Positions 30,389-52,537 of a DNA stretch of 54,180 nucleotides are shown here, piece after piece. The stretch spans positions 1 through 54,180 of the forward strand of contig JAFUGM010000009.1 of the NCBI GenBank assembly GCA_017469355.1. The letters run 5' to 3'. The translations under genes were made by a program, and so were the position numbers. The notes under the pieces are model-generated. The model had not been told where the DNA came from and searched no databases. It saw only the letters and a program-made list of their open reading frames with translations. Position 1 is the stretch's first letter. Each line of letters begins with the position of its first letter. Source of the stretch: Solobacterium sp. (lineage in GTDB: Bacteria; Bacillota_I; Bacilli_A; Erysipelotrichales; Erysipelotrichaceae).

Positions 30389-31699
30389 ATGGATCGTAAG
30401 TTTCTTCAGACAATTGGAGACTGGCAGCGGAAAAAGATCAAAGAGCCTTTGATGATCATAGGCGCAAGACAAGTCGGAAAAACCTGGTGTATCAGGGAAT
30501 TCTGCCGGAAAAACATGCCGGATTATGTATATATAAATCTGGAAGAGCGCCCTGATATAGCATCTGTATTTGAAGGGAATCTGGAACCAGAGGGTTTATT
30601 GCGGCAGATCAGCCAGATTCTAGGAAAACGTATTACTGAAGATATCCCATTGATTCTGGATGAAATTCAGGTCAGTGAGCGGGCAATCACCTCATTGAAA
30701 TATTTCTGCGAATCCGAAAGAAACTATCGGATTATCTGTGCGGGAAGTCTTCTTGGCGTGAAATTGAAACGCTTTAGCAGCTCCTTCCCGGTCGGTAAAG
30801 TACGAATTGAACACATGTATCCGATGGACTTTGAAGAGTTTCTTTATGCATGCGGTGAAGAACTTCTGGCTGAGGGGATCAGAGATGCATATAATCAAAA
30901 ATCTCCGCTTGCGGAAGGGATACATGAAAAAGCGCTGCAGCTGTATCATGACTATCTGTTGGTTGGTGGGATGCCTGCGGCAGTTCAATCCTATCTAGAC
31001 AGCGGAAAAATGATTTCCGGAATGGATTCATTGTTTTACAAGAATCTGACACTGGCATATCTGGCGGACATGACCAAATATGTAACAAGCCCGGCAGAGG
31101 GGGTAAAAATAACGGAAGTATATAACTCGATACCTCGCCAGCTATCCAGAGAAAACCCCAAGTTCAAATATAAGGAGGTTCGTCCCCGTGCGAACAAACG
31201 GGATTTCAGTGGCCCGTTGGACTGGCTGAATGCGTCCGGAATGATTCATTCCGTACACAAGCTGGATGCGGTAATGTCACCGATGAAAAGTTATGAAGAC
31301 GTGGACAGTTTCAAAGTTTATTTATCTGACGTTGGACTGCTTTCGAATATGAGTGGGCTTCAATACAAGGATCTGCTTTCTTCCAGTGACAATGTGTTCA
31401 AAGGTGCTGTAATAGAAAACTATGTTGTTCAGCAGCTGATCGCAGCAGGGATGAATCTGTATTATTTCAAACCGTCTGACAGTATGGAAATTGACCTTGT
31501 ATTTAATCTGGGCGGTCAGATCGTACCCGCAGAGATTAAATCAGGACGTCATAAGCGCTCAAGAAGTCTATTGAACTATATCGATGAATATCATCCCGAA
31601 CGAACAATTCGTTTCTCTGAGCGTAACTTCGGATTAACTGGTGGTATTGAGTCGGTTCCTCTGTACGCTGTTTGGTGTCTTGGGGAAAGGAGATTTTGA
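30389..31699 (+). CDS. AAA_14/DUF4143 ATP-binding protein (COG1373-like)
   Basis: 436 aa, GGAGG 8 bp before the ATG. N-terminal Walker A GARQVGKT (25-32) and Walker B PLILDEIQ (about 88-95), with arginine-finger-like segments near GSLLGVKLKRFSSSFPVGKVR. The C-terminal DUF4143 domain ends with a nuclease-fold-like segment (MEIDLVFNLGGQIVPAEIKSG), similar to the E-x-K core of PD-(D/E)XK nucleases. Cellular role unknown; such genes are often accessory and mobile. Monocistronic. Confidence 0.85.
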   Translation: MDRKFLQTIGDWQRKKIKEPLMIIGARQVGKTWCIREFCRKNMPDYVYINLEERPDIASVFEGNLEPEGLLRQISQILGKRITEDIPLILDEIQVSERAITSLKYFCESERNYRIICAGSLLGVKLKRFSSSFPVGKVRIEHMYPMDFEEFLYACGEELLAEGIRDAYNQKSPLAEGIHEKALQLYHDYLLVGGMPAAVQSYLDSGKMISGMDSLFYKNLTLAYLADMTKYVTSPAEGVKITEVYNSIPRQLSRENPKFKYKEVRPRANKRDFSGPLDWLNASGMIHSVHKLDAVMSPMKSYEDVDSFKVYLSDVGLLSNMSGLQYKDLLSSSDNVFKGAVIENYVVQQLIAAGMNLYYFKPSDSMEIDLVFNLGGQIVPAEIKSGRHKRSRSLLNYIDEYHPERTIRFSERNFGLTGGIESVPLYAVWCLGERRF

Positions 31700-33232: not shown

Positions 33233-33248
33233 ATGTAAACGTTTACGA
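33233..33248. promoter_or_regulatory. cre-like palindrome upstream of mglB
   Basis: ATGTAAACGTTTACGA contains the perfect palindrome GTAAACGTTTAC (33235-33246) and fits the CcpA cre consensus at all but one constrained position. A LacI-family operator (CcpA or a sugar-specific repressor) is likely. It lies about 170 bp before the mglB start in a 313-bp gene-free region that also holds a GAAAAAC/GTTTTTC hairpin at 33247-33264 and no other coding frame I can support. Confidence 0.65.
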
Positions 33249-33297: not shown

Positions 33298-33330
33298 TCA
33301 AAGAATTTTAAAGAGAAGTCAAAGAATTTT
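33298..33330 (+). repeat. Direct repeats in the mglB leader
   Basis: TCAAAGAATTTT occurs at 33298-33309 and 33319-33330, 21 bp apart (two helical turns). This spacing fits sites for an AraC/YesN-type activator, such as the response regulator encoded downstream. Confidence 0.45.
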
Positions 33331-33418
33331 CTATTTTTTTTGATTTTGGGAAGTGATTTAATGCCATTGTCGACAGGTGAAATTCCTGCGATGGTTAATT
33401 TAGGAGGGAAGAAATTCC

Positions 33419-37142: not shown

Positions 37143-37166
37143 AGGGCTGAAGATTCAGCCCTTTTT
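37143..37166 (+). terminator. Rho-independent terminator of mglBAC
   Basis: AGGGCTGA pairs with TCAGCCCT around AGAT, followed by five T's. Confidence 0.9.
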
Positions 37167-37194: not shown

Positions 37195-37509
37195 ATGAAT
37201 GTCGATACCTTTATGGCGCAGGCGGGAATTCCGGTATTGTTGTCAGTGGTGGGATTTTATTATGCCTGGAGACTTCTCTATATGAAGGATCTGGATTGTA
37301 TCCGAGGGAAGGATAAACCTCCAGTGCGGCGGAAGATTCATGATGCCTACGCAAAGGAAGCCGGCACCTTAATTCTTCTGTTTTCCTGTGCAGTGGTTGT
37401 AAACGCAATCTTGTTATTTGTGAATATCTATGTGGCATTTGCGGAGATTGTTCTTGCGGTGATCGTGTTATTTGCCAGATGGCGGAAAATGGTGGCGAAG
37501 TATGAGTAG
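37195..37509 (+). CDS. Small membrane protein before the two-component genes
   Basis: 104 aa with three hydrophobic stretches (about 10-28, 57-76, 80-97) and a cytoplasmic-looking loop rich in Lys/Arg between the first two. AGGAGG lies about 9 bp before the ATG. It overlaps the response regulator start by 8 bp, so it belongs to the same operon. No family recognised. Confidence 0.7.
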   Translation: MNVDTFMAQAGIPVLLSVVGFYYAWRLLYMKDLDCIRGKDKPPVRRKIHDAYAKEAGTLILLFSCAVVVNAILLFVNIYVAFAEIVLAVIVLFARWRKMVAKYE

Positions 37510-39112
37510 ACGTTACTCCGTCATGTTGGTGGATGATGAAGAAGAAGTCGTAAAGACCATTGTGCGTACGATTGACTGGGATGCGCTTGGGTTTTCCATG
37601 CCGGTGCTTGCGGGAAATGGGCTGGAAGCGCTGGAGCTTGCGGAAACTACACCTCCTGATGTGGTGATGACCGATATCCAGATGCCATACATGGATGGCC
37701 TTACTCTCAGCCGCAGGCTGAAGGAAACCTGGCCTAACACTAAGGTCATTATCTTTTCCGGGTTTGATGAGTTTGAATATGCCAAGGAAGCGATTCGTCT
37801 TCAGGCAGAGGAATATATTCTCAAGCCCGTAAACAGTGAAGAGTTATCCCGGGTCTTTGCCCGGATTCATGAAGCGCTGGAAAAGGAAGAAGACGAACAG
37901 CGCAATATCAAGAAACTCGAACATTATTACCAGGACAGCCTGCCGCTCATGCAGGAAGGGTTTTACACGTCACTGATTGAAGGCAGAGGGATGGTTTCGG
38001 AAAAGGAATATGAGCGGATTCTTTCCGATCTTGAGATTTCTCTTGATGGACCGCTGTATGTGGTTTGTGTCATGCATACAAGTACAACACATGTCCCCGA
38101 GGGTATGAGCCCAAGACTGCTTGCGCTTTCCGTGCGCCGGCTTGCGGAAGAACGCTTACGGGAAGAATGGCGCGTGCGCTTTTTCTCTTATCTTTCCAAT
38201 ACCGTCATGATTGTGGAAATGGATCGGGAAGAAGAGTTAACCGCATTGGTTGACTCCTGCGACAAGTTCTGCCGGCTTGCGGGATCCTTAACCAAAGCGG
38301 TCGTAACCATTGGCGTTGGGGCCATCACAAAAGATCCCAGAGATCTGAGTTATTCCTACAGTGGTGCCCGTTCCGCTATCAGTTATCGTGTGATATACGG
38401 CACTGCCAAGGCAATCAGTATTCAGGAAATCGCTCCGGGAGAGCTTTCCTTCTCCCGAACCGATGATGAAGAACAGCTGAAGGAAGTCTTCAAACGGGTG
38501 CGGTTGGAAGATGCGGATCAGCTACGGGAAGCGGTGGATGCGTATATGGCCCGCACGGAAGAGTTCAGCAGTGTGCAGGAATATCAGTTCTTTGCGATGG
38601 AGCTGGTATCAGAGATCTACCGGTTTGCCCGAAACAACAAACTGGATCTGGCTCAGGTCTTTCAGGACAGTGAAGATGTGTATTCACTGGTGGTGCGTCT
38701 TGAGAAAGAGGACCTGCGCCAATGGATGTGTGATACGTGTCTGGTGATGCAGGCGATACTGGCAGAGCAGCGCTTAAGCAACAGCCAGTCCTTTGTGTCA
38801 AAAGCGATGGACTATGTGAATGAGAACTTTGCGGATAAGGAACTCAGTGTGGAAAAAGTCTGTTCTCACCTTGGCGTAAGCGCAGCTTATTTCTCCACGG
38901 TATTCCGCAAGGAGACCGGGAAGCCGTTTACCGCCTTTTTAACCGATGTACGCATGAACCGGGCGGTAGAACTTCTGCTTGGGCAGAATGAGAAGACCTA
39001 TATCATTGCGGAGGCAGTGGGTTACAGTGATCCAAACTACTTCTCCTATGTATTCAAGAAGCAGTTTGGTGTTTCACCTTCGAAGTATCGTCAGGGGATC
39101 CGTGCCGGATGA
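37502..39112 (+). CDS. YesN-type response regulator with AraC DNA-binding domain
   Basis: 536 aa from the ATG at 37502. Receiver domain residues 1-125: acidic pocket DDEEE at 11-15, phospho-acceptor Asp58 in TDIQMPYMDG, and a Lys in LKPVNS. The middle region is a linker with a degenerate GGDEF-like or helical portion. The C-terminal double helix-turn-helix (YSDPNYFSYVFKKQFGVSPSKYR) binds DNA. Pairs with the kinase whose start overlaps its stop, and probably controls mglBAC or these genes. Confidence 0.92.
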   Translation: MSRRYSVMLVDDEEEVVKTIVRTIDWDALGFSMPVLAGNGLEALELAETTPPDVVMTDIQMPYMDGLTLSRRLKETWPNTKVIIFSGFDEFEYAKEAIRLQAEEYILKPVNSEELSRVFARIHEALEKEEDEQRNIKKLEHYYQDSLPLMQEGFYTSLIEGRGMVSEKEYERILSDLEISLDGPLYVVCVMHTSTTHVPEGMSPRLLALSVRRLAEERLREEWRVRFFSYLSNTVMIVEMDREEELTALVDSCDKFCRLAGSLTKAVVTIGVGAITKDPRDLSYSYSGARSAISYRVIYGTAKAISIQEIAPGELSFSRTDDEEQLKEVFKRVRLEDADQLREAVDAYMARTEEFSSVQEYQFFAMELVSEIYRFARNNKLDLAQVFQDSEDVYSLVVRLEKEDLRQWMCDTCLVMQAILAEQRLSNSQSFVSKAMDYVNENFADKELSVEKVCSHLGVSAAYFSTVFRKETGKPFTAFLTDVRMNRAVELLLGQNEKTYIIAEAVGYSDPNYFSYVFKKQFGVSPSKYRQGIRAG

Positions 39113-40935
39113 ACACAACATCATCAATTAAGCGTGATAAACGCAGACCTTTGACGATCAATATGATCATTCTTACGAGCTTTACGCTGATAGCGGTAAC
39201 CGCGATTTTTATCGTGGGTGCAGCGCTGTACCGGCAGTTTGCGGAGCGCTCAAGACAGATGACCATCGAATCGGCAGAGACGCTGACAGAGCGTGCCGCT
39301 GCCTCATTGGAAGACCGGCTGTACAGTATGCGTCGGATGTCGGACGCGATGTATTATGCGGTAATCAAGGATCGCAACTTTGCGGAAGACAATGTCGATG
39401 AGGAAATGAATCTCTTCTATGAAGCAAATCAGGATGTATTGATTTCTTTTTCACTGTTTACGCCAGGTGGAAATCTTGTGGCGGCGTCTCCGAGCGCGAT
39501 CATGAAGCCAAACCGTGATGTCACAAGAGAGCCGTGGTTCACGCGGGCGCAGGAACAGGTGGAAAACCTGCATTTCTCTCTGCCTCATATTCAGAATCTC
39601 TTCTATGACCGCAACTACCGGTATTACTGGGTAATCTCCCTCTCCCGGGTAGTGGAGCTTACCTATAATGGGGTGCCGAGAAATGGCGTGCTGCTTGTCG
39701 ATATGAACTACAGCACGATTACCCAGATGCTGGATGAAGTTAATTCCACAAATTCTACTGGCCAGTATATGTATCTTACGGACAGTGATGGAACGATTAT
39801 TTACCATCCCAGACAGATGCAGATTAACGCGGGGCTGTTTAATGAGAATAATGACGCGGTCGGTCATTATGATGACGGGATTTTTGAAGAAGTATTTGAA
39901 GGAGAAAACCGGGTTGTCATTGCGGATACAATTGCCTATACCGGATGGAAGCTTGTGACGGTGATTCCTTCTTCTTCCTTTTCCATTGGCCTGAATCAGA
40001 TGCGTTACTTTGTGATCTTCATGATCATGGTGATGTTTCTTGCGGTATTGATCATCAACCGGATTGTGGCGGATCGTATCTCCCGCCCAGTGATGAAGCT
40101 CGATGACGCAATCCGTGAATCGGAAGAGCAGGGAGCCATACCCGATGCGGCATATCAGGATGGATCCATGGAAGTCGTCCATCTTGGCAAGACATTGCAG
40201 GACTATCAGGTGCGCAATGCGCAGTTGATGAGCGACGTCGTGCGTCAACAGGAAGAAAAGCGCAAGAGTGAGCTGGATGCCCTGCAGTCACAGATCAACC
40301 CACACTTTCTATACAACACATTGGATTCCATTGTCTGGATGATTGAAGGCGGCCACAACAAGGAAGCGACACAGATGATTTCTCAGTTAGCGAATGTGTT
40401 CCGGATTGCCTTGTCAAAAGGACATACCATCATTCCTCTGGAAGATGAAATCCGCCATGCGGAAAACTATATGAATATCCAACATGTCCGCTTCAAGAAT
40501 TCCTTCTCTGTCCGCTTTGATATCAATCCGGAACTGAATCGTTATTGTACGGTAAAACTGATCATTCAGCCGATCCTGGAGAATGCGATTTACTATGGTG
40601 TGAAAAACATGGATGAAGACGGGGCGATTGTGGTCCGCAACTGGCTGGATGAAGGCGACCTGTATATTTCGATTGAAGATAATGGCTTTGGAATGCCGAA
40701 GGAAGTCGTGGAACATCTGCTGGATGAAGATCGCTCCCATGTGCCATCCAAGGGGAGCGGGGTTGGACTGTATAATGTGCACCAGCGGATCCGTCTGCGA
40801 TTTGGGGAAGACTATGGACTTCGTATTGAAAGTGAACCAGATACCGGAACGGTGGTCATCATTCGCATTCCTGCGATCCCTTATAACGAAGAGAACCGGA
40901 AGCTTCTCGAGGAAGGAAAGGAGAACGGCATATGA
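39109..40935 (+). CDS. YesM-type sensor histidine kinase
   Basis: 608 aa. N-terminal helix at about 18-40, an extracellular dCache-like domain to about 300, a second helix (FVIFMIMVMFLAVLIIN), HAMP, then the His_kinase domain with NPHFLYNTLDS (phospho-His) and a HATPase with EDNGFGMP and GSGVGLYNVHQRIRLRFG. Overlaps the regulator by ATGA. The extracellular domain likely contacts the sugar-binding partner encoded next. Confidence 0.92.
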   Translation: MNTTSSIKRDKRRPLTINMIILTSFTLIAVTAIFIVGAALYRQFAERSRQMTIESAETLTERAAASLEDRLYSMRRMSDAMYYAVIKDRNFAEDNVDEEMNLFYEANQDVLISFSLFTPGGNLVAASPSAIMKPNRDVTREPWFTRAQEQVENLHFSLPHIQNLFYDRNYRYYWVISLSRVVELTYNGVPRNGVLLVDMNYSTITQMLDEVNSTNSTGQYMYLTDSDGTIIYHPRQMQINAGLFNENNDAVGHYDDGIFEEVFEGENRVVIADTIAYTGWKLVTVIPSSSFSIGLNQMRYFVIFMIMVMFLAVLIINRIVADRISRPVMKLDDAIRESEEQGAIPDAAYQDGSMEVVHLGKTLQDYQVRNAQLMSDVVRQQEEKRKSELDALQSQINPHFLYNTLDSIVWMIEGGHNKEATQMISQLANVFRIALSKGHTIIPLEDEIRHAENYMNIQHVRFKNSFSVRFDINPELNRYCTVKLIIQPILENAIYYGVKNMDEDGAIVVRNWLDEGDLYISIEDNGFGMPKEVVEHLLDEDRSHVPSKGSGVGLYNVHQRIRLRFGEDYGLRIESEPDTGTVVIIRIPAIPYNEENRKLLEEGKENGI

Positions 40936-41882
40936 AACGATATCGCTGGACATTCTGGACTTCCATCCTGTTGCTCGTCGCAAGTCTATTTGTAGCTTAT
41001 TTTGGGTTCCGTACACCTTCCACAACTACCGTGCAGCGCAACCGGGTATCCGTGATTGTAAATAACTCCACAAGTGGCCGTTGGGCCAGGTTTCAGGCCG
41101 GGTTGGAACAGGCTGCGGATGATTATGACATCAGCCTGAACTATGTTTTCACTTCAGAATTTGCGAGTCTTTCGGAAGAGGAAAAGGTAATTCGAAACGA
41201 AGCACAGAGTGCGGATGCGATTCTTCTGGAATTGGTGGATTCCACCAATGCGTCTGAGCTGATTGGAGAACTGTGCCGGACAACTGTTCTGGGACTTGTC
41301 GAAACAGACGCAACTGCCGAAGTGGGAGATAACTTTGCCAGTATTACCGCGGATAACAGCGGAATCGGTATTGCCTTAGCAGAAGTGATTGCGGAAGAGT
41401 ATGATCTACCTTCCGGTACGGTAACGATTGGAATACTCTCCGGAAATCAGAAGATGGATTCCATGCGGGAGAGAACCAGTGCGTTTACCGAGCGAATCAA
41501 AGAACTGGGTGGTGATGTGCAGTGGATTGTGCAGGGAAGTTCGGACTGGACGCGTCAGAGAACTACAGATGTTGTTGTGGCGATGGACAATGACGCATTG
41601 GAAAATGCGGTAGATCTTCTGGAAACTTCTGAAGAAACACCAGCCCTCTATGGGGTAGGCTGCTCGGATAAGACCATCTTCAATATGGACCGTGGGCTGA
41701 TCCGTGCCATGGTCGTTCCCAATGATTTCCAGATGGGATATCTTGCGCTCATGGATGTGAACAGTCGAATCGACGCGCCGGGTATTCCGATGATTCATCG
41801 GGAAATCAGTTACGATGTCGTCAAGGCATCCAATATGTTTGATTCTTATAATCAGACGATCCTGTTTCCGATTATCAATTAA
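40932..41882 (+). CDS. Membrane-anchored sugar-binding sensor protein (Peripla_BP_4)
   Basis: 316 aa. One uncleaved N-terminal helix (about 5-27) and no lipobox Cys, then a periplasmic-binding-protein fold (VSVIVNNSTSGRWARFQAGLEQAADDYDISLNYVF ... FASITADNSGIGIALAEVI ... AMDNDALENAVDLLE). The start overlaps the kinase stop by ATGA. The layout matches three-component sugar sensors such as XylFII-LytS-YesN of clostridia, in which an anchored binding protein hands the signal to the kinase; the ligand here is inferred, not proven. Confidence 0.82.
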   Translation: MKRYRWTFWTSILLLVASLFVAYFGFRTPSTTTVQRNRVSVIVNNSTSGRWARFQAGLEQAADDYDISLNYVFTSEFASLSEEEKVIRNEAQSADAILLELVDSTNASELIGELCRTTVLGLVETDATAEVGDNFASITADNSGIGIALAEVIAEEYDLPSGTVTIGILSGNQKMDSMRERTSAFTERIKELGGDVQWIVQGSSDWTRQRTTDVVVAMDNDALENAVDLLETSEETPALYGVGCSDKTIFNMDRGLIRAMVVPNDFQMGYLALMDVNSRIDAPGIPMIHREISYDVVKASNMFDSYNQTILFPIIN

Positions 41883-41893
41883 TGAGGTTTGTG

Positions 41894-42889
41894 ATGAAAA
41901 AGATTGGCTGTGCACTGTTATCGGTATTGCTGTTAAGCTCCTGTGGGAAACCGGCGGACAAGGATGACAAGATTAAAATCGGTGTTTCCGTCTATGACAG
42001 TTATGACACCTTCATCGGAGAAATGATGATTGATTTCAATGCGTCGGTTGCGGGAAACGAAAATATTACGGTGGAGGTATATAACGCCGCAAAGTCCCAG
42101 CAGACGCAGAATAAGCAGATGCAGGAAATGATTGAAAACGGCTGTGATGTTATATGTATCAATCTTGTGGACCGTACCAGTCCAAAGAAGATCATTGACC
42201 TTGCGAAAAAGTACAATGTTCCGGTGGTATTCTTCAATCGTGAACTGGTGGAAGAAGACCTCTTTCAGTGGGAAGAACTCTATTATGTCGGCGCAGATGC
42301 GGCAGAGTCCGGGGTAATTCAGGGAGAGATTGCGGCAAATCTTTTTGAAAGCGGAGAAGCGGATAAAAACGGTGACGGAATCATTCAGTACATCGTACTG
42401 GAAGGAGAAGCAGGCCATCAGGATGCCATAGTACGTACGGAACGCTCTGTGGATACGCTGATTGAAAAAGGCTACAGCGTAGATAAGATTGCGTCTGCGA
42501 TCGCAAACTGGAGCCGGTCCCAGGCGCAGACCCGAATGGCAGGGTTTATTGATTCCTATGGGAACGAGATTGAACTGGTGCTTGGAAATAATGATGATAT
42601 GGCACTTGGGGCGATTGATGCTTATAAAGCAGCCGGAATTGAAAAGGATGCCTGGCCTGTCATCCTTGGGGTAGACGGAACTGGGGCAGGTCTTCAGGCA
42701 ATCTTGAATGAAGAAATGTCCGGTACGGTATTCAATGATCAGAAAGGGCAGGCAACTGCCATGGCAGACCTTGCGATCGCATTAGCGACCGGTGGTTCTC
42801 TTAATGAGCTGAATTTAAAAAACGGCAGGTATATCCGCGTGCCGTATTCCAGAATTACATTGGAAAATGTAAAAGATTATCTGGACTGA
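41894..42889 (+). CDS. Second galactose-type binding lipoprotein (MglB-like)
   Basis: 331 aa from the ATG at 41894 (GAGG site). Lipobox LLSSC near residue 16-20. MglB-like sequence: IGVSVYDSYDTFIGEMMIDF, VFFNRELVEEDLFQWEELYYVGADAAESGVIQGE, calcium-loop DKNGDGIIQY, and NNDDMALGAIDAYKAAGIE. It keeps the classical D-x-N-x-D calcium ligands more exactly than mglB. Lacking its own permease, it is probably part of the sensing cassette or a second binding protein for mglAC. Overlaps the convergent gene by 13 bp. Confidence 0.88.
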   Translation: MKKIGCALLSVLLLSSCGKPADKDDKIKIGVSVYDSYDTFIGEMMIDFNASVAGNENITVEVYNAAKSQQTQNKQMQEMIENGCDVICINLVDRTSPKKIIDLAKKYNVPVVFFNRELVEEDLFQWEELYYVGADAAESGVIQGEIAANLFESGEADKNGDGIIQYIVLEGEAGHQDAIVRTERSVDTLIEKGYSVDKIASAIANWSRSQAQTRMAGFIDSYGNEIELVLGNNDDMALGAIDAYKAAGIEKDAWPVILGVDGTGAGLQAILNEEMSGTVFNDQKGQATAMADLAIALATGGSLNELNLKNGRYIRVPYSRITLENVKDYLD

Positions 42890-43500
42890 ACTTCCGCGAG
42901 ATAGGAAGCTCCATCCGGGACCAGTGCTTCATAGCGCTCCAGAAGAATGGATCGTAAGGGAAGTGCTGCTTCAAGATCGGGGGTGCGCTCCGGCACGGTT
43001 TTTGTGACAGTGAAGATCTCGCTGGCAAGACGAAGACATGCGGTGCGGTCAGACACATGTCCGACCCCAAACGCCGCAGTGCGATAGGAACTGCTGGACA
43101 GGTTGGAAGAGATCAGAGAGTCGGCGAAGTTCTTCCACTCTTCCTTCAACAGATCATCTGTTTCTTCAAAGAGACAGAGCTGTTCCAGCCAGGTATGAAC
43201 ATCCCGTTCATAACGTGCTCGATTCAGGAAATTGACCGGTTGAGAGCCGGCTGCCCATAACATCATCCACGCGTTGAGAAACTGATCATGAAATGACGCA
43301 TCCCAACGTTTATGAAATAACTCCAGACGCCGAAGGTCCTTTCTGGAATCGGGGTGCTGATGCAGTTGTTCCTGCAGGGCAAAAAGACGGGCAGAGGGTT
43401 CCAGGGAATAGTATGACGCTGGCCAGGAGCGAAGCGAATCTTCTTTGAACTCTGAGTTGAGAATCATATAAAGAATTATATCAAACTGAACTTCATTCAT
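42877..43500 (-). CDS. Conserved hypothetical helical protein
   Basis: 207 aa, mainly helical and rich in Leu, Glu and Arg, with no signal or membrane segment. No recognised domain. It converges with and overlaps the lipoprotein gene by 13 bp and starts only 22 bp from the divergent gene at 43523. There is no clear ribosome site for the ATG at 43500 or for the alternative at residue 12. Likely real because of length and lack of a longer opposing frame; function unknown. Confidence 0.55.
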   Translation of the reverse strand: MNEVQFDIILYMILNSEFKEDSLRSWPASYYSLEPSARLFALQEQLHQHPDSRKDLRRLELFHKRWDASFHDQFLNAWMMLWAAGSQPVNFLNRARYERDVHTWLEQLCLFEETDDLLKEEWKNFADSLISSNLSSSSYRTAAFGVGHVSDRTACLRLASEIFTVTKTVPERTPDLEAALPLRSILLERYEALVPDGASYLAEVQSR

Positions 43501-43522: not shown

Positions 43523-44647
43523 ATGGGAACGACATTTCAGGCAATCGTGATGAAAACAACAAACTGCTCCATGGATCCCATGGTTCAGCTGTGTTCCGAA
43601 AAAGGATATGAACCCTGCGCCAAAGAAGAGGCAGAGCTGATGGTATGGACAGAATCACTCGGAAGCGAATTTACGCTGGTTGCGGGAGATACGGCATGGA
43701 TAACACCAGAAGAGCTTTCGGATACCTATCAGGTACCAGTGCTGTTCCTCGATTGTATGGACAGTGATGCGGTGTTGTATCGGCTGGCGATGGACAGTTC
43801 AAATACAACAATCGCCGCAAGCGGGCGGTTCCCAGAAGAGATGGAACTGCCTGAGATTGACTCTGCACTCTGGAAGGCATTTACAGGAGTGGAGATGGAC
43901 TATTCTTCCTTCTTTGCGAAGGAATATCTGTTTGCGGAAGATGGGATCATTGAACTGCTTCATGCGATGGGGATACAAGAAGATAACCTTCTGATTCGTT
44001 TGTATGGAGAAACACCAGGGCCTAATGCCTGTTATGTTCGCTCACAACCGAAAAAGCAGGAACATTCACAGCTTCCTTCACATCCGATTCTGAAACACTA
44101 TTCCTATCAGAGTCGGCCAATCAAAGCAGAGGAACCCTATTACTTTAGTTTTATGAATGAAGGAGCTTCTGGAAGAGGGGTTGAGTTATGGTTAAGCGGA
44201 CCGTTTGTGGAACGTGATGCGATGACATTTACTGAAGTCTATGTCACACAGAATGGAAAACCAATCGAAGGCACTTTTCTTGGAAAGCGAAGTCACCCTT
44301 CCCTTGGGCCGTTATATGCTTATCGGTTTGAATCGGTAGAACTCATGGATGGGACGGACCTGGAACAGCTGCGTAACCACTCTGCGATAGGACGGCGGGC
44401 CATGGAACAACAATATGCGGAGCTCATGAAACATGTGGTGAATGTGTCATTCATTCCCCATGGGGATAACCGGTATGGCCTGGATGTGTATTTTTCAGTA
44501 GTGCCAATCGAACATGGACAGGGGTTCACCTGGTCAAACACTGCCTTTCAAAGTCATGAGGAATTCATCGCGGAATATAACCAGATGTACGCATACAACC
44601 CGGAACTGCAGCTGCATTCTGAGGACTACATACTGCCTGAACATTGA
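43523..44647 (+). CDS. Hypothetical protein, DUF4026-like in layout
   Basis: 374 aa, acidic, no signal peptide. Preceded by GAGGCGG with good spacing. The C-terminal half contains GDNRYGLDVYFSVVPIEHGQGFTWSNTAFQS. No catalytic motif recognised; the resemblance to DUF4026-type proteins is only a guess. Divergent from the 42877-43500 gene. Confidence 0.6.
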   Translation: MGTTFQAIVMKTTNCSMDPMVQLCSEKGYEPCAKEEAELMVWTESLGSEFTLVAGDTAWITPEELSDTYQVPVLFLDCMDSDAVLYRLAMDSSNTTIAASGRFPEEMELPEIDSALWKAFTGVEMDYSSFFAKEYLFAEDGIIELLHAMGIQEDNLLIRLYGETPGPNACYVRSQPKKQEHSQLPSHPILKHYSYQSRPIKAEEPYYFSFMNEGASGRGVELWLSGPFVERDAMTFTEVYVTQNGKPIEGTFLGKRSHPSLGPLYAYRFESVELMDGTDLEQLRNHSAIGRRAMEQQYAELMKHVVNVSFIPHGDNRYGLDVYFSVVPIEHGQGFTWSNTAFQSHEEFIAEYNQMYAYNPELQLHSEDYILPEH

Positions 44648-48428: not shown

Positions 48429-49529
48429 TCATTTCAGCAGTTTTTTAAGCTTCTTCTCGTGCTGTAACGAAAAATCGCTTAATACATATGATCTGATTCG
48501 TTTTCCCGAAAGATTGGGGACAACAAACCCATTCTTTACCAAACCTGCGAGTCTGTTAATGATCGTTTTGTTTGTGACGCCAAGTTCCTTGCTGATGTCG
48601 ATAGGGGTAAAGTCTCCCTTGTGCTTGCTTATCAGGAATAAAAGCAGTTCTTTCTCTCTGGTCTTAAGATAAGATAAGCTGCCTGCTAATTCATCTTCAT
48701 CTGATGCTTTTGATAACTCACATACTTTATTTGAATATAGAAGTACCATCCTCAGAAAATAGTTAACCCATATTTCTGGATATGGTGGGTTGTTTCTTCC
48801 GTTGTAATAGTGAGGCGAAAGCCCCATCTGAATGGAATCGTAATATTCCTGAATATCGTAGGCGAAGTATTCTTCCAGGGATCCAATTCCGTTAAATCCA
48901 TAACCGTTGATATCGAGAATGTAACCGGAAAGAAGTCTTGCCGTTCTTCCGTTGCCATCTTCAAATGGATGTATAGTCACAAGCTGATAATGAACCACTG
49001 CTGCGACTATCAAAGGATGATCATCTGTCTCATTTACATATGCCACAAGCTCATCCAGAAGCTCAGGGATATCTTTATACTCCGGCGGAATATAATCGGG
49101 ATTTCCTGTTTCAGAATCATATACGGCAAACAGTACTCCTGGCGGAGTCTGCCCTCGAAGTCCAATCTTTTCTTTTGGGGCACCTTTTTCAACATACTTT
49201 TGCACGTCAAGTATCAGTTTTTTGGAGAATGCTTCTTTCTTTTTGGCTTTCTCCTCAAGATAGTTCAGCGCAAGATAATAATTTCTGACTTCCTGCTCAG
49301 GTTTCAAGTAGTGCCGGTGTCCGTCACTTTCAATTACTTCATCTGCCTGCTTTTCCGAGAGGGGATTACCTTCTATTTTTGTGGACGCATAAGAACTCTT
49401 TTTCTTGGAGTTCTTTCTCAATTTATTCGCAACAGACTTTGGCAGCCGAACCGCAGACACCTCAAACCTGTTTTTCTCAATCGCTGTGATGTATTTTAGG
49501 ATTTCGTTGGTCAACGTTACATGAATCAT
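48429..49529 (-). CDS. Fic-domain protein with N-terminal inhibitory helix and C-terminal winged helix
   Basis: 366 aa. Fic core HPFEDGNGRTAR at residues 187-198 (catalytic His187), a beta-hairpin flap near GVLFAVYDSETGN. The N-terminal alpha-inh motif STKIEGN (49-55, with Glu53) marks a class II, self-inhibited enzyme. C-terminal residues about 300-345 read ISKELGVTNKTIINRLAGLVKNGFV, a winged-helix DNA-binding domain. Predicted to transfer AMP to proteins and to act in transcriptional control or stress. Stand-alone gene. Confidence 0.9.
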   Translation of the reverse strand: MIHVTLTNEILKYITAIEKNRFEVSAVRLPKSVANKLRKNSKKKSSYASTKIEGNPLSEKQADEVIESDGHRHYLKPEQEVRNYYLALNYLEEKAKKKEAFSKKLILDVQKYVEKGAPKEKIGLRGQTPPGVLFAVYDSETGNPDYIPPEYKDIPELLDELVAYVNETDDHPLIVAAVVHYQLVTIHPFEDGNGRTARLLSGYILDINGYGFNGIGSLEEYFAYDIQEYYDSIQMGLSPHYYNGRNNPPYPEIWVNYFLRMVLLYSNKVCELSKASDEDELAGSLSYLKTREKELLLFLISKHKGDFTPIDISKELGVTNKTIINRLAGLVKNGFVVPNLSGKRIRSYVLSDFSLQHEKKLKKLLK

Positions 49530-49736: not shown

Positions 49737-49764
49737 GATTACAACGGATGTGAGGAACCAAGCT

Positions 49765-51033
49765 ATGAAATATTTACCTAGAATTATAGACCAAACACTT
49801 AAGAACAAATTAGAGGGGAAAGGAGCTGTGCTTATTCAAGGCCCTAAATGGTGTGGGAAAACAACCACAGCTGAGCAAGTGGCAAAAAGCGTTATTTACA
49901 TGGATGAGCCAGAAAGAAAACAACAAAATATACAACTTGCAGACATTTCCCCATCTACAATATTAGAAGGAGATTCACCTCGATTAATTGATGAATGGCA
50001 AATTGCACCGAAACTGTGGGATGCTGTTCGTTTTTCTGTTGATCATAAAGATGGGAAAGGTCATTATATTTTGACTGGTTCTTCTGTTCCTGCTGATTTA
50101 TCAGAAATATCTCATAGCGGAACAGGACGATTTGCCTGGTTAACAATGAGAAACATGAGTCTTTATGAATCTAATGAATCAAGTGGAGAGGTTAGTATCA
50201 AAGATTTGTTTGAAGGAAAACAAGATATTAATGGTACAAACAATTTGAATATTAACAAGTTAGCCTATCTAGTATGTAGAGGTGGATGGCCCGATACCTT
50301 AGATTTGAAAGAAGATATTGCTCTAGAAACTGCTTATGATTACTTAGATGGGGTTGTAAATTCAGATATTTCAAGGGCAGATGATATTACAAGAGATCCT
50401 GAAAGAGCTAGAAGAATAATGAAGTCTTATGCAAGACATCAAGGCACACAAATTGCATATACAGAGATTGCCAATGATATAAGCACGAACGAACTGAATT
50501 TCACAGATGAAACCGTTGCTTCATATTTGAAGGCGCTAAAGAAGATATTTGTTGTTGAGGATATGTTATCTTGGAATCCTAATTTGCGTTCTAAAACATA
50601 TATTCGAACTACAGATACAAGATATTTTAGTGATTCAGCCATAGCGGCTGCCTCTCTAGGTGTTGGGCCAAAAGATTTGATTAATGATTTAAATACTTTT
50701 GGACTATTATTTGAAACGATGTGTATAAGAGATTTAAGAGTATATGCAGAAGGATTAAATGGCACACTTTATCATTATCGAGATCGTACAGGTTTAGAAT
50801 GCGATGCAGTTATTCATTTAAGAAATGGTGAATATGGTCTTATTGAGATTAAGCTTGGTGGAGATAGACTAATCAGCGAAGGTTCTTCTAATTTGCTAAA
50901 ACTTGAATCATTAATTGATGATAAAAAAATGAAGAAACCATCTTTCAAGATGATATTAACCGGAACAGATCGTTATGCTTATAGAAGACCCGATGGAGTT
51001 TTAGTTGTTCCTATTGGTTGTCTTAAGGAGTGA
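49765..51033 (+). CDS. AAA_14/DUF4143 ATP-binding protein (second copy of the type)
   Basis: 422 aa from ATG 49765 (GAGG site); a GTG at 49750 is in frame upstream. Walker A GPKWCGKT (26-33), Walker B PRLIDEWQ (about 78-85), GRFAWLTMRNMSLYE central helix, and the C-terminal DUF4143 nuclease-like core (LECDAVIHLRNGEYGLIEIKLGG). Clearly more AT-rich than the rest of the window, so probably acquired. Not closely similar to the protein at 30389. Function unknown. Confidence 0.85.
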   Translation: MKYLPRIIDQTLKNKLEGKGAVLIQGPKWCGKTTTAEQVAKSVIYMDEPERKQQNIQLADISPSTILEGDSPRLIDEWQIAPKLWDAVRFSVDHKDGKGHYILTGSSVPADLSEISHSGTGRFAWLTMRNMSLYESNESSGEVSIKDLFEGKQDINGTNNLNINKLAYLVCRGGWPDTLDLKEDIALETAYDYLDGVVNSDISRADDITRDPERARRIMKSYARHQGTQIAYTEIANDISTNELNFTDETVASYLKALKKIFVVEDMLSWNPNLRSKTYIRTTDTRYFSDSAIAAASLGVGPKDLINDLNTFGLLFETMCIRDLRVYAEGLNGTLYHYRDRTGLECDAVIHLRNGEYGLIEIKLGGDRLISEGSSNLLKLESLIDDKKMKKPSFKMILTGTDRYAYRRPDGVLVVPIGCLKE

Positions 51034-51177: not shown

Positions 51178-52537
51178 CTTAGGATCTGTAACGAAATAAT
51201 ATCTGCTATTATTTTATAACATAACAACTTATTTTGTTACATATATGATATAATAACACCGAGAATACCGGTTTATGTCTGTAAGTACTGAAACGAAAAA
51301 TGCAGTAACAGAGTTGATTACCATCATGACTCCTGTTCTTAATGAAAAACAGAAAAGGATTCTTTATGGTGCAGCTGCCAAAGTGCTTGGACATGGAGGT
51401 GTTACAGCAGTACAGAAATCTGTTGGTCCGGCAAAAGAAACAATCATTGCGGGAAAGAAAGAAATCGAAAAAATCCAAGGTTCTGAAAGCAGTGATCTTC
51501 CAGAAGGAAGAATACGCAGGCCTGGAGGAGGCAGAAAAAAAGCAAAGGATAAGAATCCATTACTGTACGATTATATTGAGGAGATTATAGAGGAATCCAC
51601 ATACGGAAGCCCGGTAAACATACTGAAATGGACAACTCTAAGTCTGCGTGACATAGCAGAACAGGTAAAAGAAAAGTTCGATATTGAGATAAGTCACAAT
51701 ATAGTCAGTAGAGCTCTTGAAGAATTAGGCTATAGTAAACAGCAGAATCAGAAGAATCTTCAGGTAGGAGAACCACATCCCGACAGAAATGCACAGTTTT
51801 GTTTTATAAATAACAAAGCTCAGGAATTTATCGAAGCGGGAGATCCGGTTATATCCGTAGATACAAAGAAGAAAGAACTGATCGGAAACTTTAAGAATAA
51901 TGGGTCAGAATATCGAAGAGAGCGAGATCCAAGACAGGTACTGGATCATGATTTTGCGTTACCTGAATTGGGCAAAGTAGCACCATATGGAGTATATGTG
52001 TTAAACGATAATACAGGTTTTGTAAATCTGGGAACGGATCATGATACGAGTGAATTCGCCGCTGAAAGTATCTGCAGGTGGTGGTTTACAGTTGGAAAGA
52101 ATACATTTCCGAACGCAAAGAGAATTTATATCAATTCAGACGGTGGAGGCAGTAACAGACCGAGAGGACTACAGTGGAAATATCAGTTACAGCAGATTGC
52201 GGACATCACCGGGCTAGAGATCCATATGTCACACTTTCCTCCAGGAACAAGTAAGTGGAATAAGGTTGAGCACAGACTGTTCTGCTATATCACAAAGAAC
52301 TGGCAGGGAAAGCCACTGATAGATATAGAGACAGTAGTAAATCTGATATCAAGCACAACCACGAAAAAAGGGCTGAAAGTCAAATGTGTACTAGACACCA
52401 ACAAATACGAACTAAAACAAAAGATCACAGACGAACAAGCTAATACAATCAACCTGGAAGAATGTGATCAATTTGGAAAATGGAATTATATTATTCTTCC
52501 TGCTAAAGGATGAATTTAATTTATGACAATTCCTTAG
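51178..52537 (+). mobile_element. ISAzo13-family insertion sequence
   Basis: Candidate terminal inverted repeats at 51178-51199 (CTTAGGATCTGTAACG...) and 52516-52537 (reverse complement CTAAGGAATTGTCATA...), identical at 15 of 22 positions. The implied length of about 1.36 kb suits an ISAzo13 element with one transposase. A second inverted repeat TGTAAC 51187 / GTTACA 51236 lies inside the left end. Appears to have inserted beside or into the IS605 remnant. Confidence 0.55.
51275..52513 (+). CDS. ISAzo13-family transposase (DDE)
   Basis: 412 aa. N-terminal helix-turn-helix region with SLRDIAEQVKEKFDIEISHNIVSRALEELGY. DDE residues seen in VISVDTKKKE (first Asp), YINSDGGGSN (second Asp) and SKWNKVEHRLFCYI (Glu). 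Pattern DGGGSNRPRG and FPPGTSKWNKVEHRLF are typical of ISAzo13/Rhodopirellula-type transposases. Intact frame, so possibly active. No obvious Shine-Dalgarno. Confidence 0.9.
   Translation: MSVSTETKNAVTELITIMTPVLNEKQKRILYGAAAKVLGHGGVTAVQKSVGPAKETIIAGKKEIEKIQGSESSDLPEGRIRRPGGGRKKAKDKNPLLYDYIEEIIEESTYGSPVNILKWTTLSLRDIAEQVKEKFDIEISHNIVSRALEELGYSKQQNQKNLQVGEPHPDRNAQFCFINNKAQEFIEAGDPVISVDTKKKELIGNFKNNGSEYRRERDPRQVLDHDFALPELGKVAPYGVYVLNDNTGFVNLGTDHDTSEFAAESICRWWFTVGKNTFPNAKRIYINSDGGGSNRPRGLQWKYQLQQIADITGLEIHMSHFPPGTSKWNKVEHRLFCYITKNWQGKPLIDIETVVNLISSTTTKKGLKVKCVLDTNKYELKQKITDEQANTINLEECDQFGKWNYIILPAKG

Follow-up and report, generated by a model that had tools for sequence, protein, structure and literature searches.

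The window, meaning the whole 54,180-nucleotide stretch analyzed here, comes from Solobacterium sp. (contig JAFUGM010000009.1) and is contig 90 of a 2.69-Mb genome; near relatives of the locus are annotated as Solobacterium or Erysipelotrichaceae. It carries, all on the forward strand, an mgl-type sugar importer and, directly behind it, a five-gene cassette that is predicted to sense sugar on its behalf. The importer consists of an mglB-like substrate-binding lipoprotein (P0001, 33419-34498), an mglA-like ATPase (P0002, 34598-36106) and an mglC-like permease (P0003, 36122-37108). The mgl names are best matches only, as the scores of MglB (NF011924, 183 bits against a cut-off of 420), MglA (NF008215, 635 against 828), MglC (NF007014, 304 against 386) and the second MglB-like protein of the cassette, MglB2 (NF011924, 219 against 420), all fall below the NCBIfam equivalog cut-offs.

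The cassette opens 86 nt behind mglC, from which a terminator-like hairpin with a T-tract (37143-37162) separates it. Its first gene encodes a small membrane protein of 104 amino acids (P0004, 37195-37509) with no Pfam or NCBIfam match. It is followed by a YesN-like response regulator (RR, 37502-39112) with REC (PF00072) and AraC-type helix-turn-helix (PF12833) domains, whose ATG start lies within a TTG-started open reading frame listed from 37472. The histidine kinase (HK, P0006, 39109-40935) has dCache_1, His_kinase (PF06580) and HATPase_c domains. Its dCache_1 domain is complete and strongly conserved, and the nearest solved chain to its kinase domain by sequence is GanS (6swk, E 2.9e-23). 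The last two genes encode proteins of the periplasmic binding protein (PBP) fold, both matching Peripla_BP_4: ancPBP (P0007, 40932-41882), a helix-anchored subunit with a rewritten cleft, and MglB2 (P0008, 41882-42889), a lipoprotein of the glucose/galactose-binding type and the proposed sensing protein.

The original prediction, made from the letters of the window, had described these five genes as joined by short overlaps, and the coordinates give overlaps of 8, 4, 4 and 1 nt in gene order. It had also described ancPBP as anchored without a lipobox. This agrees with the AlphaFold model (mean pLDDT 86.8), where residues 2-26 form an N-terminal helix, and with the lack of a lipobox here and in 84 of the 85 relatives scored. 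Its description of the other two binders as soluble was not upheld. Both MglB (..SLIGC) and MglB2 (..LLSSC) carry a lipobox-like Cys and, therefore, are probably tethered lipoproteins.

Gene order and distribution

Of 272 genomes from the window's bacterial family, 14 proved to carry ancPBP in a search with a single sequence. With a profile, the 14 genomes scored E ≤1.4e-94 and were followed by a sharp gap, the next match being genome G011 at 2.7e-35. An MglB2-like gene was found in all 14 by profile search (E ≤4.8e-69). The order RR-HK-ancPBP-MglB2 was kept in the loci of the 13 relatives as far as each contig extends; one of them (L028) has MglB2 cut off. A wider scan of contigs, which used one pattern requiring Pro or Thr at a Gln position of the ancPBP cleft, gave 79 ancPBP loci, mostly from Lachnospiraceae and also from Erysipelotrichaceae; Roseburia, Butyrivibrio, Oribacterium and Solobacterium are genera with the module. 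Where the contig left room, HK preceded ancPBP in 78/78 loci, RR preceded the HK/ancPBP pair in 74/74 and MglB2 followed ancPBP in 75/75 (74/75 by script; L136 shows MglB2 at position 671). This conserved order rules out a chance neighborhood. The recurrence of the same gene order in 79 loci from many genomes also makes the earlier word "unusual" too strong for the arrangement.

The proposed tie between the sensor and mgl was borne out, with mglBAC adjoining the cassette in 44 of the 57 loci that have at least 8.5 kb of upstream sequence (46/79 overall). A chvE-gguAB transporter takes its place in 5/79 loci and another ribose-type ABC transporter in four more. Since these other transporters adjoin the module in some loci, the four genes from RR to MglB2 form a stable unit with an exchangeable transporter. 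Relatives of the small membrane protein were present in 40/46 mglBAC-linked loci and in 10/33 loci without mglB.

Mean identity across 44 complete loci was 0.83 for mglA, 0.82 for mglC, 0.74 for mglB, 0.61 for HK, 0.60 for MglB2, 0.58 for RR, 0.41 for the small protein and 0.38 for ancPBP. In the same loci, once the mglA/C trend was removed, distances correlated with those of HK at 0.77 for RR, 0.76 for ancPBP, 0.65 for MglB2 and 0.34 for mglB. In a kinase tree, 13 of the 14 Erysipelotrichaceae rows clustered together (support 91) amid Lachnospiraceae. This may point to transfer between the two families, although the tree is unrooted and has several long branches. One cassette labeled Akkermansiaceae (L091) was nested among Clostridia and is likely a mis-binned contig.

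Two further observations concern the downstream end of the cassette. A DUF6553 gene (42877-43500, reverse strand) points toward it in the window, and relatives of this gene follow the cassette in most Erysipelotrichaceae loci. In two Butyrivibrio loci (L108:11036-13894 and L084:15935-18793), a long extracellular part is fused to the C-terminus of MglB2, giving a protein of 952 amino acids with DUF3298 and a PdaC-like stretch.

Binding-protein pockets

The pockets of MglB and MglB2 were compared with GGBP at ten positions that we take to be its sugar contacts, in GGBP and RbsB numbering. Several of the scanned contig loci belong to genomes that also appear under a G number, and duplicates (identical C-terminal 150 residues) were dropped before counting; the ancPBP fragment L136 and the MglB2 fragment L120 were also excluded. 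MglB2 of the window equals GGBP at all ten contacts and at five side-chain calcium positions, while MglB of the window has Asn in place of H152 and also deviates at positions 138 and 142 of the calcium site. The calcium loop of MglB2 (D-N-D-x-Q...E) is, as the original prediction stated, more classical than that of MglB (D-N-N-x-D...E). Among 50 MglB sequences, nine of the ten contacts were kept in 50/50 and His152 was replaced by Asn in 50/50. In MglB2 (n=80), His152, D14, N91, D154, R158, W183 and N211 were present in 80/80, D236 in 79/80 and N256 in 73, and position 16 was Phe in 72 and Tyr in 8. The calcium residues D138 and Q142 were kept in 79/80 and 77/80 of MglB2 sequences compared to 30/50 and 25/50 of MglB sequences. 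The His152 of MglB2 and the Asn of MglB could reflect a division into a tighter sensing binder and a weaker transport binder, by analogy with the CuaDSR system discussed below.

By family, ancPBP stands closest to known sensor proteins. Its profile matched GanP best among solved chains (E 3.6e-28), followed by 3brs, 4rxt, XylFII (2.6e-17) and 6sw4, an arabinose binding protein (AraP by title). The top Foldseek match of its model was GanP (6gt9), and VIA-align gave Z scores of 29.9 for GanP and 28.8 for XylFII, which other ribose-type proteins equaled (up to 31.4). The cleft is a different matter. An Asp common to GanP, 3brs, 4rxt and XylFII is Gly in 85/85 ancPBPs. A Gln common to the same proteins is Pro in 82, Thr in 2 and Glu in 1, a tally that is biased because the scan pattern required Pro or Thr at this position. 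In the 14 ancPBPs found without that pattern, the Asp is Gly in 14/14 and the Gln is replaced by 11 Pro, 2 Thr and 1 Glu. The stacking Trp (84/85) and an Arg (79/85) are kept. The cleft is not decaying, since the top-residue frequency of its nine columns averages 0.84 compared to 0.48 over all 321 columns, and 0 of 20,000 random column sets reached this value.

XylFII-like sugar sensing by ancPBP was rejected as the preferred reading, on the change of Asp to Gly in 85/85 and the loss of Gln. The likeness to XylFII that the original prediction drew is thus sound for family, by profile and fold, and is not supported for the sugar-sensing role. Similarly, the kinship of the three pockets on which that prediction relied holds between MglB and MglB2 and does not extend to ancPBP. 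CbpA with weakened contacts is described as binding glucose at 240 μM (PMC9601137), suggesting that contact loss lowers affinity and need not abolish binding.

As a control, we examined a further 28 PBPs, obtained with the L206 protein (described below) or the ancPBP profile; the Asp was kept in 28/28 and the Gln in 27/28. Ten of these are followed by a HisKA_3 kinase (10/10 neighbors tested) and keep both residues. Therefore, adjacency to a kinase, even together with a helix anchor, is not in itself linked to the residue loss. These ten loci (L209, L212, L216, L218, L220, L221 and L226-L229) hold mostly helix-anchored PBPs that overlap a kinase of about 437 amino acids, and this pair is, as judged from its genes, a PBP-kinase sensor of its own, whose pocket residues are intact.

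Related kinases with a single binding protein were also found. G011 (locus L206) has the order RR, HK, GanP-type lipoprotein with Asp and Gln kept, mglB-like, mglA, mglC, with no MglB2 beside the kinase, so that a dCache kinase is paired with a pocket-intact GanP-like lipoprotein alone. Two other genera of the family have an MglB2-like lipoprotein with a GGBP pocket directly after the kinase, and no ancPBP. This arrangement was partly visible in 11/16 loci and fully visible in the 5/5 that were fetched (L233-L237); these lipoproteins have Tyr at position 16 and, in two, Phe for W183. The kinases of L206, L233 and L235, the three tested, all matched dCache_1, that of L206 below the curated cut-off. 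Like the window, L206 and L233-L237 combine an RR, a dCache kinase, a pocket-intact lipoprotein PBP and a sugar ABC transporter, and they differ in that each has a single PBP of the pair present in the window. Across these kinases there is, by residue comparison, one intact sugar pocket per kinase. In loci of the window's type, which join both proteins, only MglB2 keeps its pocket, and this is the main reason why MglB2 is named the sensing protein.

A direct repeat upstream of mglB

The upstream regions of 46 mglB genes were scored for 13-base direct repeats at different spacings. The best spacing was 21 (mean 10.07), compared to 8.67 or less for the other spacings from 14 to 44. A 21-bp direct repeat has the spacing used by AraC-type dimers. 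A 42-nt weight matrix placed a site above 20 bits in 44/46 of the training upstreams. When the window and its two nearest relatives were left out of the matrix, 33299-33340 scored 26.1 bits, and the next place in the window scored -7.5. This predicted RR operator is a direct repeat, AAGAATTTT-N12-AAGAATTTT, with halves at 33301-33309 and 33322-33330 on the forward strand.

Outside the training set, the full matrix found the operator before chvE in L131 (26.2 bits), L139 (19.5) and L143 (10.5), between the divergent chvE and RR genes in L071 (19.0), before the binding protein of the third transporter type in L086, L089, L091 and L117 (35-42), and before a gene without assignment in L100 (13.7); in L138, chvE is cut off. 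Shuffled loci gave no site above 0 bits. The operator was also present before mglB in 4/4 cases in which this gene is distant from the cassette or sits on a separate contig (36.5-44.0; one site is the same as a training site), and it was absent before 15/15 mglB genes of family genomes that lack the cassette. The association of operator and cassette suggests that RR acts on the importer, and we infer activation rather than repression. In the window's own genome the sole exact operator match is the place before mglB. A wide regulon in this genome was rejected, as allowing up to three mismatches gave 115 places compared to 102 for a reversed control.

The matrix scan showed no operator-like site before the cassette in the window and, therefore, the sensor genes may rely on read-through or on a promoter not seen here. 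Hairpins were found in the gap between mglC and the next gene in 26/46 loci compared to 2/46 shuffled gaps. Consensus promoters in the window (12 compared to 13.7 expected) were not in excess. In addition, a strong GC hairpin with a T-tract lies between mglB and mglA in 26/45 relatives' loci, 0 when shuffled and none in the window, and probably lets mglB be made in excess. A palindrome upstream of mglB, TGTAAACGTTTACG (33234-33247, forward strand), has one mismatch to what we take to be the cre consensus and is a weak candidate for a CcpA/LacI-type operator; only 4/46 upstreams have a place within one mismatch. An Rfam riboswitch search of the window returned none at the gathering score. A search of the genome for a galK-type kinase gave one match of 109.8 bits, below the cut-off of 226.65.

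A proposed sensor with two binding proteins

Reading from these sequences, we consider it probable that MglB2 is the sugar detector, that ancPBP links it to the kinase and that the importer is turned on by RR. MglB2, held at the membrane as a lipoprotein with an intact pocket, would catch glucose or galactose, and the loaded protein would dock on ancPBP and the dCache domain of HK. ancPBP would be a dedicated kinase subunit, fixed in the membrane by its helix and no longer holding a monosaccharide in the usual way. HK would then phosphorylate the AraC-type RR, which would bind the 21-bp-spaced repeat and turn on mglBAC. Transcripts that run past the hairpin at 37143 may also increase expression of the sensor. 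More tentatively, and at somewhat less than even confidence, ancPBP may be a pseudo-binding protein. In this reading it once sensed sugar itself, its cleft changed after MglB2 had joined the kinase, and today it recognizes another binder in its closed state. The sensor would then have four components, with one PBP receiving the ligand and the other serving as adaptor to the kinase.

To our knowledge, each kinase known to receive its signal through a binding protein has just one such partner, and our searches of the open-licence literature returned no published case of two PBPs on one kinase. ChvE-VirA is an example in which a periplasmic PBP acts through a sensor kinase. The closest proteins belong to GanPST of Geobacillus stearothermophilus, where GanP (6gq0, 6gt9, 6guq) is closest to ancPBP and GanS (6swk, 6swj) to HK. 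Structure titles name GanP a glucose-galactose binding protein, and presumably it is the binding protein of the GanPST sensor. GanPST has a single binding protein, which retains the Asp and Gln of the pocket, in contrast to the two found here, of which the GanP-type one is rewritten and helix-anchored.

The same PBP family and a two-component kinase beside a sugar transporter are found in XylFII-LytS(-YesN) of Clostridium beijerinckii (5xsj, 5xss, 5xsd), where XylFII is described as helix- or membrane-linked and acting on the kinase, as we propose for ancPBP (PMC6321045). However, XylFII binds xylose and keeps Asp and Gln, neither of which ancPBP keeps, and the passages on XylFII-LytS in that source mention no second adjoining PBP (PMC6321045). 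In LuxPQ and TorTS, a periplasmic PBP also works through a sensor kinase (PMC6321045). These two and ChvE-VirA differ in having one PBP each and other genes and outputs. In CuaDSR of Ruminiclostridium cellulolyticum, the sensing lipoprotein CuaD is described as binding about 10-fold tighter than the transport binder and as contacting the kinase (PMC10384115). Separate sensing and transport binders and an AraC-type RR are common to CuaDSR and the window, and MglB2 resembles CuaD in role. CuaDSR differs in having no second anchored PBP in the account given and in the extracellular part of CuaS, modeled as seven helices rather than dCache (PMC10384115). A sensing protein separate from the transport protein is also described for a chitin system (PMC8233162). 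The cassette fits the PBP-HK-RR type of sugar sensor in its REC and AraC RR, its membrane His_kinase HK and an adjoining PBP of the same family, and it departs from that type in a kinase-adjacent PBP without the sugar-contact Asp and Gln. Since these residues are not kept, ancPBP was not classed as a sugar-binding member.

Several results weigh against the proposed division of labor. ancPBP is the least conserved protein of the cassette, at 38% mean identity, and its Gln tally carries the bias of the scan pattern. The full matrix found no operator site in L088, and the operator scores weakly in L032, L034 and L035 and is lacking from L033 and L129. The cassette-less mglB genes are more distant, and thus the lack of the operator there is partly phylogeny. 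The conserved cleft also fits a different ligand. This last point favors a dual input, in which the cleft of ancPBP binds another ligand, MglB2 reports glucose or galactose and the kinase integrates both. The cleft columns are indeed strongly conserved though the whole protein is not, but there is no candidate ligand and no solved relative listed has the contact set of ancPBP, so we regard this as unlikely. ancPBP may thus be an adaptor locked without ligand or, less probably, a receptor for something else.

We hold it equally unlikely that the system is a plain three-component sensor, in which sugar is bound by ancPBP itself, in the manner of XylFII and GanP, and MglB2 serves as a further substrate binder for MglAC. 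Membership in the GanP/XylFII/AraP family and the retained Trp and Arg are consistent with this. Against it stand the replacement of Asp by Gly throughout and the lack of Gln in the 14 unbiased sequences. In addition, MglB2 remains next to the kinase in loci whose transporter is chvE-gguAB or of another type, and it is the lone PBP beside the kinase in two other genera. Least likely, and in our view highly improbable, is direct signal binding by the dCache domain of HK with both PBPs only modulating. The full, strongly conserved dCache_1 would allow it, and the CuaSR kinase alone is described as still responding to cellobiose (PMC10384115). Yet the adjacency of MglB2 and the kinase is invariant wherever visible, which is hard to explain if MglB2 is dispensable.

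What seems new in the proposed sensor is that the sensing job is split between a sugar-binding protein and a rewritten kinase-side twin, in a widespread gut lineage. The same family holds kinases with either protein alone and, therefore, living species allow the steps to be compared. With the predicted operator, control of these commensals' main glucose/galactose importer becomes testable, and the rewritten cleft poses a clean question of what, if anything, ancPBP holds.

The remaining genes noted in the window are a 374-amino-acid protein with no Pfam or NCBIfam match (43523-44647), two AAA_14/DUF4143 ATPases (30389-31699 and 49750-51033), a Fic-domain protein (48429-49529) and, near the contig end, a transposase gene of the DDE_Tnp_ISAZ013 type (51275-52513).

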